64,000 nt of DNA, from contig NZ_LRUC01000020.1 of assembly GCF_001550095.1 (NCBI RefSeq), positions 1 to 64,000 on the forward strand, written 5' to 3'. The stretch is from Celeribacter ethanolicus. GTDB lineage: Bacteria; Pseudomonadota; Alphaproteobacteria; Rhodobacterales; Rhodobacteraceae. The notes beneath the pieces are model-generated. The model saw nothing but the letters and a program-made list of their open reading frames with translations. It searched no databases and was not told where the DNA came from. This document shows, piece by piece, positions 45,078 to 48,709 of the stretch (position 1 is its first letter; each line of letters starts with the position of its first letter). The translations under genes and the position numbers were made by a program.

Positions 45078-48014
45078 TTAGCCAAGCGCCTCGTCGCAGC
45101 GCCCGCAGACACCCGCGTGACCATGGGTGCCCACATCCGGCAGGATTTTCCAGCAACGCTGACATTTCTGCCCTTCGGCCTTCTCGAAAACGACGCCGAT
45201 CCCCTCGACCTCGCCTTCGAGGCGGAAGGCCTCGTTCGGCGCCGGATCGCCCGTGAGCGTGATCCCGGAGGTGATGCAGAGATCGTCAAAGTCGATGGAT
45301 TTCAGCGCCGCCAGAAGCGCCTGATCCTCGACATGCACCGTCGGTGCGGCTTCGAGAGACGCGCCGATCACCTTGTCACGACGCTGCACTTCGAGGGCGG
45401 CGGTCACGACGCGGCGTGCCTTGCGGATACCGGCCCATTTCGAGGCCAGAGCCCCATCAAGCCAGCCCGGCGCGGCCTCGGGGAAGTCCACGAGATGCAC
45501 GGAGCTTTCGTCCCCCGGGAAGCGTTCCAGCCAGACTTCCTCCATCGTGAACACGAGGATCGGAGCGAGCCAGGTGGTCAAACGGTGGAACAGGATGTCC
45601 AGCACGGTCAGCGCCGCGCGACGACGATCCGTGTCCCCGTCGCAATAGAGCACGTCCTTACGGATGTCGAAATAGAAGGAGGACAGATCGACGGTCGCAA
45701 AGTTGAACACCGCCTGCCAGACGCCGGAGAAATCGAAGGTTTCGTAGCCCTCGCGCACCGTGGTGTCCAACTCGGCCAGACGATGCAGCACCCAGCGCTC
45801 CAGCTCCGGCATGTCGCGACAATGCATCCGGTCGGCTTCATCGAAGTCTCCGAGCGAGCCGAGGATAAAGCGCATGGTGTTGCGCAGACGACGGTAGCTG
45901 TCCGCCACGCCTTTTAGGATTTCCGGCCCGATCCGCTGATCGGCGGTGTAATCCGTCTGCGCCACCCAAAGCCGCAGGATGTCAGCGCCGTATTGTTTGA
46001 CGATCTGCTCCGGCACGATGGTATTGCCGAGAGATTTGGACATTTTCATGCCCTTCTCATCCAGCGTAAACCCATGCGTCACAACGTTTTTATAGGGCGC
46101 ACGGCCTTTGGTGCCGCAGGCCTGCAAGAGAGACGAATGGAACCAGCCGCGGTGTTGGTCGGTGCCTTCGAGGTACACGTCGGCGATGCCATCAGGCGTG
46201 CCGTCCTCGCGGTCGCGCAGCACGAAAGCATGCGTTGAACCCGAGTCGAACCACACGTCCAACACGTCGAAAACCTGTTCATACTCATCCGGGTTCACGA
46301 CATTGCCGAGCACGCGCTCCTTGAAGCCCTCTTCGTACCAGACATCCGCGCCTTTTTCCTCGAAAGCGGCGGAGATGCGGGCGTTGACCTCGTCATTGCG
46401 CAGAAGGAACCCGTCCTCGGTCGGCAACAGACCTTTCTTGGTGAAGCAGGTCAGCGGCACACCCCAGGCACGTTGACGCGAGAGCACCCAGTCCGGGCGG
46501 TTCTCGATCATCGAGTACAAGCGGTTGCGCCCGGTCTGCGGCGTCCATTTCACCAGTTGGTCGATGGAGGTTAGCGCGCGGGTCCGGATCGTATCGCCAT
46601 AGGTGTCCATACCGTCATCGAGTTTACGGTCGACCGCGACAAACCATTGCGGCGTGTTGCGGAAGATCACCGGGGCTTTCGAACGCCACGAATGCGGGTA
46701 GCTGTGCTTGATCTTACCGCGCGCCATGAGACCACCCACTTCGGTCAGCTTGGCGATCACGGCGGCGTTGGCATCGCCCTCCCAATCGCCTTTCTTCGGC
46801 TTGTCGCGCAGGATGCGCTTGCCGCCGAAGAAGGGCAGATCTTCGCGGAAGCTGCCGTCGTCCATGACGTTATAGGTGATCACCTGCTCGAGCATGCCGA
46901 GATCGCGGTAGAGCTCGAATTCTTCCATCCCGTGCGACGGCGCACAGTGCACAAAGCCGGTGCCCTCGTCATCGGTGACAAAGGGCGCAGCGCGGAAGTC
47001 GCGCAACCCGTCCCATTCGCCATTGCTGCCCTCGGCCCCTGCGAGGGGGTGCAACAGCGACAGGCCTTCGAACTCAGAGGTCGGCACATCGCGCACGCGG
47101 GTCCATTGATCCTCGGCGAGGCGCGCCTTGGCAAAGCATTGCGCCGCGAGTTTATCGGCGAGGACATATTTCTCCCCGACCTTGAGCCAGCATTCGTCCG
47201 GCGTGCCCGTCACCTCATAGAGGCCGTAGTTGTAATCGGCACCGTAGACCACCGCCTTGTTCGACGGGATGGTCCAGGGCGTGGTGGTCCAGATCACGAC
47301 ATAGGCGCCCTGAAGGTCCGCACCCTCATTGGCGACGGCGAACTTCACCCAGATCGTCGGGCTTTCCTTGTCGTGATATTCGACCTCGGCCTCGGCCAAT
47401 GCAGTCTCTTCGACCGGCGACCACATCACGGGTTTGGAGCCTTGGTACAACGTGCCGTTCATCAGGAATTTCATGAACTCCTCGGCGATCACCGCCTCGG
47501 CATGGAAATTCATCGTCAGGTAGGGATCGTCCCACTTGCCGTAGACACCCAGCCGTTTGAATTCCTCGCGCTGGACGTTCACCCATTCATCGGCAAAGGC
47601 GCGGCATTCCTGGCGGAAATCCACCACCGGGACCTCGTCCTTGTTCTTGCCCTTTTCGCGATATTTCTCTTCGATCTTCCATTCGATCGGAAGGCCGTGA
47701 CAATCCCAACCCGGCACGTAACGCGCGTCAAACCCCATCATCTGATGCGAGCGCGTGATGATGTCCTTGATCGTCTTGTTCAGCGCGTGGCCGATGTGCA
47801 GATGCCCGTTGGCGTAGGGAGGGCCATCGTGCAGCACGAAGGATGGGCGACCGTCCGCCTTACCCTTGGCGCGAAGCGTCTCATAGACGTCGATCTTGGC
47901 CCAACGTTCCAGCCAGCCCGGCTCGCGGTTCGGCAGGCCCGCGCGCATCGGGAAATCGGTTTTCGGCAGATTGAGCGTGTCTTTATACTCGGGTGTGGTC
48001 GTCTCGGAACACAT
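45078..48014 (-). CDS. ileS: Isoleucyl-tRNA synthetase
   Basis: A 978-residue class I synthetase that charges tRNA-Ile and edits valine. HIGH is at 73-76 (ANGHLHIGHA), the editing domain covers about 200-400 (VIWTTTPWTIPSNKA), and KMSKSLGN follows. The C-terminal zinc motif is CQRCWK...CGRC. It starts at 48014 with AAGGAC. The upstream region encodes an Ile-rich leader peptide with alternative hairpins, so the gene is probably controlled by charged tRNA-Ile. Confidence 0.97.
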   Translation of the reverse strand: MCSETTTPEYKDTLNLPKTDFPMRAGLPNREPGWLERWAKIDVYETLRAKGKADGRPSFVLHDGPPYANGHLHIGHALNKTIKDIITRSHQMMGFDARYVPGWDCHGLPIEWKIEEKYREKGKNKDEVPVVDFRQECRAFADEWVNVQREEFKRLGVYGKWDDPYLTMNFHAEAVIAEEFMKFLMNGTLYQGSKPVMWSPVEETALAEAEVEYHDKESPTIWVKFAVANEGADLQGAYVVIWTTTPWTIPSNKAVVYGADYNYGLYEVTGTPDECWLKVGEKYVLADKLAAQCFAKARLAEDQWTRVRDVPTSEFEGLSLLHPLAGAEGSNGEWDGLRDFRAAPFVTDDEGTGFVHCAPSHGMEEFELYRDLGMLEQVITYNVMDDGSFREDLPFFGGKRILRDKPKKGDWEGDANAAVIAKLTEVGGLMARGKIKHSYPHSWRSKAPVIFRNTPQWFVAVDRKLDDGMDTYGDTIRTRALTSIDQLVKWTPQTGRNRLYSMIENRPDWVLSRQRAWGVPLTCFTKKGLLPTEDGFLLRNDEVNARISAAFEEKGADVWYEEGFKERVLGNVVNPDEYEQVFDVLDVWFDSGSTHAFVLRDREDGTPDGIADVYLEGTDQHRGWFHSSLLQACGTKGRAPYKNVVTHGFTLDEKGMKMSKSLGNTIVPEQIVKQYGADILRLWVAQTDYTADQRIGPEILKGVADSYRRLRNTMRFILGSLGDFDEADRMHCRDMPELERWVLHRLAELDTTVREGYETFDFSGVWQAVFNFATVDLSSFYFDIRKDVLYCDGDTDRRRAALTVLDILFHRLTTWLAPILVFTMEEVWLERFPGDESSVHLVDFPEAAPGWLDGALASKWAGIRKARRVVTAALEVQRRDKVIGASLEAAPTVHVEDQALLAALKSIDFDDLCITSGITLTGDPAPNEAFRLEGEVEGIGVVFEKAEGQKCQRCWKILPDVGTHGHAGVCGRCDEALG

Positions 48015-48050
48015 GTTTTTGTCCTTGGGAGGAATGGTCGGAAAATTCGA

Positions 48051-48081
48051 GGGCGGCGCGGGTCTCCATACGCCTTGTCCC
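48051..48081 (-). promoter_or_regulatory. Weak terminator-like hairpin of the ileS leader
   Basis: On the - strand GGGACAAGGCG pairs with CGCCGCCC (GGG with CCC, GGCG with CGCC, internal loop), and a TTTT tract begins five bases later (48042-48045). It uses the same GGG as the upstream hairpin, so only one of the two can form. The terminator strength is uncertain. Confidence 0.4.
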
Positions 48082-48117
48082 GGCGGCTCGTAGGATCTTT
48101 GAGATCAGAGCGCCGGG
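48079..48117 (-). promoter_or_regulatory. Antiterminator-type hairpin overlapping the leader stop
   Basis: On the - strand CCCGGCGCTC (48117-48108) pairs with GAGCCGCCGGG (48089-48079) with one bulged C; a small inner hairpin, GATCT/AGATC, lies in the loop. The 5' arm lies over the last codons of the leader peptide and its stop, so a ribosome finishing the leader would block it. Confidence 0.55.
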
Positions 48118-48155
48118 CTGATAATTCGAATAATGATCGCGACCATGAATGTCAT
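48105..48155 (-). CDS. Isoleucine-rich leader peptide of ileS
   Basis: A 16-residue open frame reads MTFMVAIIIRIISPAL and stops at 48105, about 90 bases before ileS. Five of six codons in the core are Ile (ATC ATT ATT, CGA, ATT ATC). The run is in the same position as leader peptides of amino-acid attenuators. The start may be leaderless (TATAAG box six bases upstream) or use AAGG at 48163. No ortholog was checked. Confidence 0.7.
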   Translation of the reverse strand: MTFMVAIIIRIISPAL

Positions 48156-48161
48156 AAGCGC

Positions 48162-48190
48162 CTTATAGGACGCGGCTTGCGGGCGGTAAA
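48162..48190 (-). promoter_or_regulatory. Promoter of the ileS leader
   Basis: On the - strand TTTACC (48190-48185), 17 bases, then TATAAG (48167-48162). The A of the leader ATG (48155) would be at or next to the transcription start, giving a leaderless leader peptide as reported for alphaproteobacterial trpL. Confidence 0.45.
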
Positions 48191-48225
48191 CCCGTCTTAA
48201 CAGGGGCCGTATATGAAAACCGGAT

Positions 48226-48267
48226 AGGAAAAAGGGACGCCGCAGACCCTGTCTGAGGCATCCCTTT
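48226..48267 (-). terminator. Terminator after the four-cysteine gene
   Basis: On the - strand an 11-bp stem, AAAGGGATGCC with GGCGTCCCTTT (one GT pair), encloses a GTCTG/CAGAC inner pairing and is followed by TTTCC. It separates the small gene from the ileS leader. Confidence 0.8.
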
Positions 48268-48355
48268 CTCATGTGCTGTCTGGCGAGAGGGCGGCGTGGC
48301 TGGCCCGGGTGTTTCCTAGCGTGCTTCGGTCGCTGTCTGGCTGGAGCGCGTAATC

Positions 48356-48535
48356 TCAGGCGGCGTTTTGTTCGAACTGACCGCACCAGTCGTCGGATTT
48401 CACAACCGGCCACATGCCTTTGTGTTCCGCTTCGGTCAGGAAGGTCGGCGGGTTGAAACGGCATTCGCCTTTGGCGTCGGTTTCAACAGCCTTAAGCTCA
48501 AAGAAGGCACAGGTTTTGCAAGCGGTATCAGACAT
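48356..48535 (-). CDS. Small four-cysteine protein, hypothetical
   Basis: A 59-residue protein starting MSDTACKTCAFFELKA. Cysteines lie at 6, 9, 25 and 51, a CxxC pair plus two more, which could bind zinc or an iron-sulfur cluster. The ATG at 48535 lies after GGGAGTG. It has a good terminator and diverges from the truncated haemoglobin across a 289-bp region. It is too small to be found by length alone. The function is not known. Confidence 0.72.
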   Translation of the reverse strand: MSDTACKTCAFFELKAVETDAKGECRFNPPTFLTEAEHKGMWPVVKSDDWCGQFEQNAA

Positions 48536-48690
48536 GGCGACACTCCCCGATCCGGGTTCATAGGTTTTGGCTATTGGGCTGAAGCGGCTGGGAGAATGGC
48601 TGCCTGCGATGGGTGGCTTTTCGTCCTTGCTGAGAGTGATTTAGGCGCACGGAACAAAGAAGTCAAGAAAATATTCAACAAAATCAAATG

Positions 48691-48709
48691 GTTGACATAT
48701 TTTCTCAAC
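48691..48709. promoter_or_regulatory. GTTGA-N9-TCAAC inverted repeat, Rrf2-type operator candidate
   Basis: A perfect inverted repeat, GTTGA (48691-48695) and TCAAC (48705-48709), with nine A/T-rich bases between. It fits the TGA-N9-TCA form of RirA/Rrf2 iron-responsive boxes. It is in the AT-rich divergent region between the four-cysteine gene and the truncated haemoglobin. It could control one or both genes in answer to iron or NO. Confidence 0.45.

Follow-up and report, generated by a model that had tools for sequence, protein, structure and literature searches.

What does the DNA in front of ileS do in Celeribacter ethanolicus? The gene is essential, and in the window (the whole stretch of 64,000 nucleotides that was analysed, from contig NZ_LRUC01000020.1) it is preceded by a short reading frame rich in isoleucine codons and by sequence that can fold into two hairpins. 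An initial annotation had read this arrangement as a transcription attenuator. We compared the region with its counterparts in related genomes, of which the named loci were retrieved with the IleS N-terminus as query; that the gene is ileS we take from its sequence features and the initial annotation. The comparison suggests, with a probability of about 80%, that the leader senses the supply of Ile-tRNA through its translation and controls ileS.

Table 1. Positions of the features in and around the ileS leader of the window.
Feature	Position	Strand	Basis
ileS, isoleucyl-tRNA synthetase, 978 aa	45078..48014	-	ORF list
Promoter-like TTTACC-17-TATAAG	48162..48190	-	sequence reading; TATA spacing conserved
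Its parts: TTTACC, TATAAG, spacer of 17 nt	48190-48185 (TTTACC); 48167-48162 (TATAAG)	-	sequence reading
Leader ORF MTFMVAIIIRIISPAL, probably translated from a leaderless 5' end	48105..48155	-	155/161 regions; frame and stop tests; Ile codons at -3 to -1
Core CGAATTA (codons CGA ATT A..)	48122..48128	-	conservation; rare codons in ileS
Hairpin 1 (HP1), stop codon in loop region	48079..48117	-	-20.5 kcal/mol; covariation
Hairpin 2 (HP2)	48055..48074	-	87.1% of cells paired in main helix
Possible outer HP2 extension (GGG:CCC) that would exclude the HP1 foot	48051..48081	-	enriched over control triplets
Shine-Dalgarno-like AAGGA of ileS	48022..48026	-	sequence reading

On the minus strand the elements follow one another in the order TTTACC-17-TATAAG, leader, HP1, HP2, a C-rich stretch, AAGGA and the ileS ATG. 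Six nucleotides separate TATAAG from the leader ATG, and 90 nt separate the leader stop from the ileS ATG (48014). The 16 codons of the leader are ATG ACA TTC ATG GTC GCG ATC ATT ATT CGA ATT ATC AGC CCG GCG CTC (ATG at 48155-48153, TGA at 48107-48105), and the entire leader folds with a z score of -2.86. For the AAGGA of ileS, folding of the window yields the adjacent UCCU as the only partner (a 4-bp hairpin), and inspection of related loci by eye, without a count, showed no conserved partner in the leader for this Shine-Dalgarno sequence. The gene upstream of the leader has its own likely terminator at 48226-48268 (-), a hairpin that folds with -26.7 kcal/mol and has TTTTT behind it; it is an example of a U-run terminator in this genome and would insulate the leader from upstream transcription.

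The Ile-rich frame proposed initially recurs across the genus and family, in 155 of 161 regions upstream of ileS. These regions represent 142 of 149 family genomes (one per genus; two gave no match and five gave weak or short matches) and 19 further members of the genus. Among the six regions without the leader, one lies on a contig that offers nothing upstream of ileS (L253) and another carries the variant CGAATTG (L243). The core heptamer CGAATTA is absent before ileS or misplaced in five of the 161 regions (L193, L233, L243, L251 and L253), and in L250 it occurs by chance; this row was dropped as a false match from the alignment used here (A1, 137 of 138 selected rows).

Several properties of the frame point to translation. 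In all 143 testable leaders, the first ATG past the TATA hexamer, chosen regardless of frame, is in frame with the CGA of the core; the other 18 of the 161 regions were set aside, 13 without a TATA in range and five without the core. Each of the 143 leaders has an in-frame stop no more than 40 nt away; in the two other frames only 12 and 37 do. Within the genus the leader length differs by in-frame steps of 3 nt, and the stop codon varies among leaders (TGA, TAA or later in-frame stops). Isoleucine occupies codons -3, -2 and -1 in 82, 101 and 74 of 137 leaders and is written with each of its three codons; ATG stands at the same positions in only 2, 2 and 3 of these rows. The initial annotation had named loss of the Ile codons in relatives as the result that would count against it; the codons are conserved. 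As in an attenuator, a short leader with codons for the regulated amino acid, the translation of which we infer from frame, stop and Ile conservation, thus lies between ileS and a promoter placed by its TATA position.

In the window alone the leader frame stays open up to an ATG at 48464, so the start at 48155 is assigned by comparison only. Of the 143 testable leaders, 141 have a TATA hexamer 5-10 nt 5' of their ATG, a spacing from which transcription would begin at the AUG or beside it. The conserved position speaks for the start that had been proposed behind TTTACC-17-TATAAG, whereas a consensus scan of 47800-48600 found neither promoter nor terminator. Because the same scan missed the clear hairpin and T-run at 48268-48226, it is weak evidence either way. 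The leader is probably translated, and from a leaderless 5' end. A start mapped in Methylorubrum, which its paper places 150 nt upstream of ileS and behind TAGAAG (PMC9320726), fits a leaderless leader by its position.

Within the leader, the codon pair CGA-ATT is invariant in 143 leaders, an invariance that is partly built in since these rows were selected by CGAATTA and the A1 rows by CGAATT. Both codons are rare in the gene itself. Across 137 loci, ATT accounts for 7.6% of the Ile codons in the ileS part and CGA for 1.4% of the Arg codons there, and ileS of the window uses neither (0 ATT among 37 Ile codons, 0 CGA among 64 Arg codons). Retention of such rare codons in the leader argues for selection beyond the amino acids. 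None of the 137 rows shows a gap between CGA and the foot of HP1.

In the genome of the window the pattern CGAATTANNNNCCSGG has a single match, at ileS, and the family pattern search matched 121 of 149 genomes, with a single match for the reversed-pattern control. A wider regulon was rejected, the core pattern being single in this genome and six off-list family matches having been inspected: three lie in sequences that resemble one another, seem to be coding and have no leader frame (L315, L316, L318), one lies in a different sequence (L317), one lies before ileS (L320) and one ends at a contig edge (L319). We also discarded mimicry of a tRNA T-loop, as the bases 5' of CGAATTA vary outside the family, and a helix between the core and a TTCGAA further downstream, which is seen in folds of the window and, judged by eye, is not conserved beyond the genus.

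HP1 stands out by energy. It folds with -20.5 kcal/mol (z -4.19), a value equalled by none of 200 shuffles; in A1, 94.1% of its cells are paired and seven of ten pairs show changes on both sides. For HP1 and HP2 as drawn, 90.2% of the cells in the 137 rows of A1 are paired, compared with 85.3% after shuffling and 33-42% when the structure is slid, although drawing the structure from the same sequences favours it over the slid versions. The covariation of both hairpins that had been predicted is borne out by 131 double changes in A1 against 44.8 in shuffled alignments. RNAalifold, run on the entire A1 alignment, recovered just seven HP1 pairs and no HP2. The idea that the loop of HP1 presents a GAU anticodon was rejected, since CTGATC is not conserved.

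The second hairpin is unremarkable by energy alone (48081-48051, -10.9 kcal/mol, z -1.07, 27 of 200 shuffles as good; inner part 48074-48055, -7.5 kcal/mol, z -1.67, 15 of 200), and the inner part has covariation in its favour. In A1, 87.1% of the cells of the main helix are paired, GGCG/CGCC exchanges with GGTG/CACC, and one pair has 38 double changes; the four core pairs form in 99 of 137 rows and are incomplete in 38. HP1 and HP2 are compatible with each other; exclusion of HP1 would come solely from the outer GGG:CCC pairs that extend HP2, as had been suggested from the shared GGG. In this extension 80.5% of cells are paired, with one double change. All three outer pairs form in 51 of the 99 leaders with HP2, against 24.5% of downstream control triplets, and at least two of three form in 93 of 99, against 63%. 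The outer pairs are therefore enriched but hardly covary, and mutual exclusion of the hairpins is possible. A version of the second hairpin with CGGG:CCCG was rejected, its covariation not exceeding that of shuffles and its last pair being unformed in 67 of 123 lettered rows. Counted without regard to descent, HP2 tends to come with the upstream Ile run, which is present in 78 of the 99 leaders with HP2 and in 9 of the other 38; on the tree the link is not significant, with only three supported independent pairs, and a coupling of the two was discarded.

The second hairpin and a following TTTT had been taken for an intrinsic terminator, which the comparison does not support. The TTTT near 48045 is neither adjacent to the hairpin nor conserved, and at least four T within 8 nt past HP2 were found in just 20 of 146 leaders. 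Past HP1, at least four T within 8 nt occur in just 3 of 198 Rhodobacteraceae rows, a set that, like another of 38 rows, includes a few false matches and some errors of a simple hairpin finder (as in L138). An intrinsic terminator, in the sense of a hairpin with a U-run, was thus not recognised before ileS in Rhodobacteraceae.

The element extends beyond the family. All ten Caulobacteraceae loci have the leader, 92-217 nt 5' of ileS (an IleS match was obtained in 10 of 12 genomes searched), as do 12 of 60 class-wide loci, a sample of every second row from 124 places in which five further CGAATT strings were excluded by eye. CGAATTA is present in the 220 nt 5' of ileS in 60 of 80 named loci (an eye count; two have shorter upstream sequence) and missing in six named loci with gamma- or betaproteobacterial titles (L113, L124, L128, L130, L133 and L136). 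HP1, directly 3' of the core, is the hairpin common to lineages beyond Rhodobacteraceae. Its offset is identical in all 23 named loci that were tested, and outside Rhodobacterales 21 named loci have the element and HP1 at this offset. Nine of these 21 (L109, L111, L123, L127, L132, L135, L137, L138 and L139) have a T-run of at least three T in a row no more than 7 nt past HP1, in an analysis that corrects the errors of the hairpin finder for these loci; the other 12, including five Bosea-like and two Roseibium loci, do not. With a T-run behind it, HP1 outside Rhodobacterales looks like a terminator, the opposite of the role given to it initially. Occurrence of the same arrangement in many Alphaproteobacteria very probably reflects an old isoleucine-sensing switch. 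In six Rhizobiales loci (L111, L123, L127, L135, L137 and L138) folding places a further hairpin past HP1, often GCGC-rich.

How might such a switch operate? Transcription would begin at the leader AUG or beside it, and a ribosome would load at the 5' end and translate a short peptide in which CGA-AUU is directly 5' of HP1. With Ile-tRNA in short supply, the ribosome would wait at the Ile codons; at AUU it would cover the HP1 foot or abut it. With ample Ile-tRNA it would reach the stop codon and leave, and HP1 could form. Because HP1 is common to the lineages and terminator-like in some, we regard it as the candidate ancestral off-structure, which may act as an intrinsic terminator in some Rhizobiales. 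Stalling, direction of control and output step are read from sequence, and the proposed direction together with HP1 as off-structure has, in our judgement, a little less than an even chance of being right. Several points count against the explanation as a whole: the general lack of U-runs in Rhodobacteraceae and of T-runs in 12 of 21 named loci elsewhere, the partial recovery of the structure by RNAalifold, and the retention of CGA and ATT at the codon level, which Ile sensing alone would not need. The family Ile run counts against it too, since most of it precedes CGA and a ribosome stalled there would stay clear of HP1. When CGA occupies the P site and AUU the A site, the HP1 foot is at +12. 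A ribosome footprint reaches about +15 and would cover the lowest pairs of HP1, whereas the ribosome helicase position at +11 would leave them uncovered, so that geometry alone leaves the direction of control unsettled.

In Rhodobacteraceae the off-step is probably of another kind, with HP1 lacking a U-run and a second hairpin present. As neither hairpin is followed by a U-run in most family leaders, the output would have to be Rho-dependent, an effect on stability or another step, and our first guess would be that Rho ends transcription on the C-rich stretch in front of ileS. The median C/G ratio at -55 to -15 before ileS is 2.1 in 137 family loci and 0.88 in the control, for which 31 upstream regions of the window were picked mechanically; the pooled ratios are 2.13 and 0.97. 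Such a stretch is compatible with Rho and proves nothing. The excess of C over G, seen at 48029-48069 (-) of the window and in the 137 family loci, marks a possible loading stretch for Rho.

The classical reading of the initial annotation inverts the role of HP1. A ribosome stalled in the Ile run would let HP1 form and take the GGG, which blocks the extended HP2 and leaves ileS on, and a ribosome at the stop codon would mask HP1, so that the extended HP2 forms and transcription stops. Placement of the family Ile codons at -3 to -1, mostly upstream of CGA, agrees with it, as do the enrichment of the outer HP2 pairs, the raw association of HP2 with the Ile run, and a fold in which removal of the 5' part up to a stop-codon ribosome gives the extended HP2. 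We nevertheless consider it quite unlikely: most leaders have no U-run past HP2, the outer pairs barely covary, the association with the Ile run fades on the tree, and class-wide HP1 is itself terminator-like in the nine named loci with a T-run. In a bolder reading CGAAUUA itself would act as a codon-pair or RNA-sequence signal, more than an Ile codon. The element would then be a class-wide minimal attenuator, in which CGA-AUU holds a leaderless ribosome at a stop-bearing hairpin and the outputs vary, with intrinsic termination in some Rhizobiales and a non-intrinsic step plus second hairpin in Rhodobacteraceae. This reading is tentative and seems to us somewhat unlikely.

Effects on mRNA stability would account for two observations at once, the base-level conservation of CGAATTA in excess of amino acid need and the failure to find a terminator in the family. 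Here the leader ribosome would shield an RNase E site in the A/U-rich GAAUU, a candidate by the RNase E consensus, or HP1 would be a protective 5' hairpin. Neither version explains the T-run past HP1 in nine of 21 named loci or the conserved CG of the core, and we judge it improbable. The two covarying hairpins and nearly fixed core would also suit a protein-binding or other structural RNA with the reading frame as a by-product, which is highly improbable given a frame kept in every testable leader, stops that shift in frame, lengths that change in frame and an HP2 core incompletely paired in 38 of 137 rows.

The leader that we propose to sense Ile-tRNA resembles the attenuators of trp, his, ilv and leu operons, in which a short leader with codons for the operon's own amino acid is followed by hairpins. 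Unlike them, it would control a synthetase gene from a leaderless start, its stop codon is inside a hairpin, the family has no recognisable intrinsic terminator, and mutual exclusion is weakly supported. The description of trpL/rnTrpL in Sinorhizobium meliloti (PMC10117765), a leaderless short ORF beginning at the AUG of the transcript, is similar; its codons are for Trp and it precedes trpE with an attenuator, and the likeness is one of description, not of compared sequences. In Actinobacteria, the passages on T-boxes in PMC1262725 assign ileS control to the RNA level too, through direct binding of tRNA, whereas no Rfam family, the T-box model included, matches the ileS leader: searches at E up to 5 over 47800-48700 gave one chance match only, and at the gathering score eight related loci gave none. 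The same paper describes conserved actinobacterial cys leader peptides without obvious terminator, for which its authors considered Rho.

An ileS leader CDS has been named before. A figure legend in Schrader et al. (2014) lists CCNA_03934 of Caulobacter crescentus as a negative control (PMC4117421), in an alphaproteobacterium whose family carries the element; the legend gives the name without mechanism or conservation, and the CDS may correspond to the element. Beyond this CDS, full-text searches of an open-access library brought up no account of the class-wide element, a result that does not prove novelty. The main text of a survey of premature terminators (PMC2965389) contains none of ileS, isoleuc-, Alphaproteobacteria, Rhizobi- and Agrobacterium, and ileS is absent from the main texts of two S. 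meliloti papers (PMC3616915 and PMC10117765).

If confirmed, a leader sensing tRNA-Ile would be common to Rhodobacteraceae, Caulobacteraceae and several Rhizobiales. It would offer a natural series in which one sensor of constant geometry gains or loses a U-run, and the question why a rare CGA-AUU pair keeps a fixed distance to a hairpin would become testable. Among the named loci the core itself shows a few exceptions. One locus reads CGAATTC (L091), and outside the family three Bradyrhizobium-like leaders (L109, L119 and L129) keep ATTA and HP1 with GGC or CGG in place of CGA. In L139, CGAATTA occurs twice, 9 nt apart, 5' of the hairpin.
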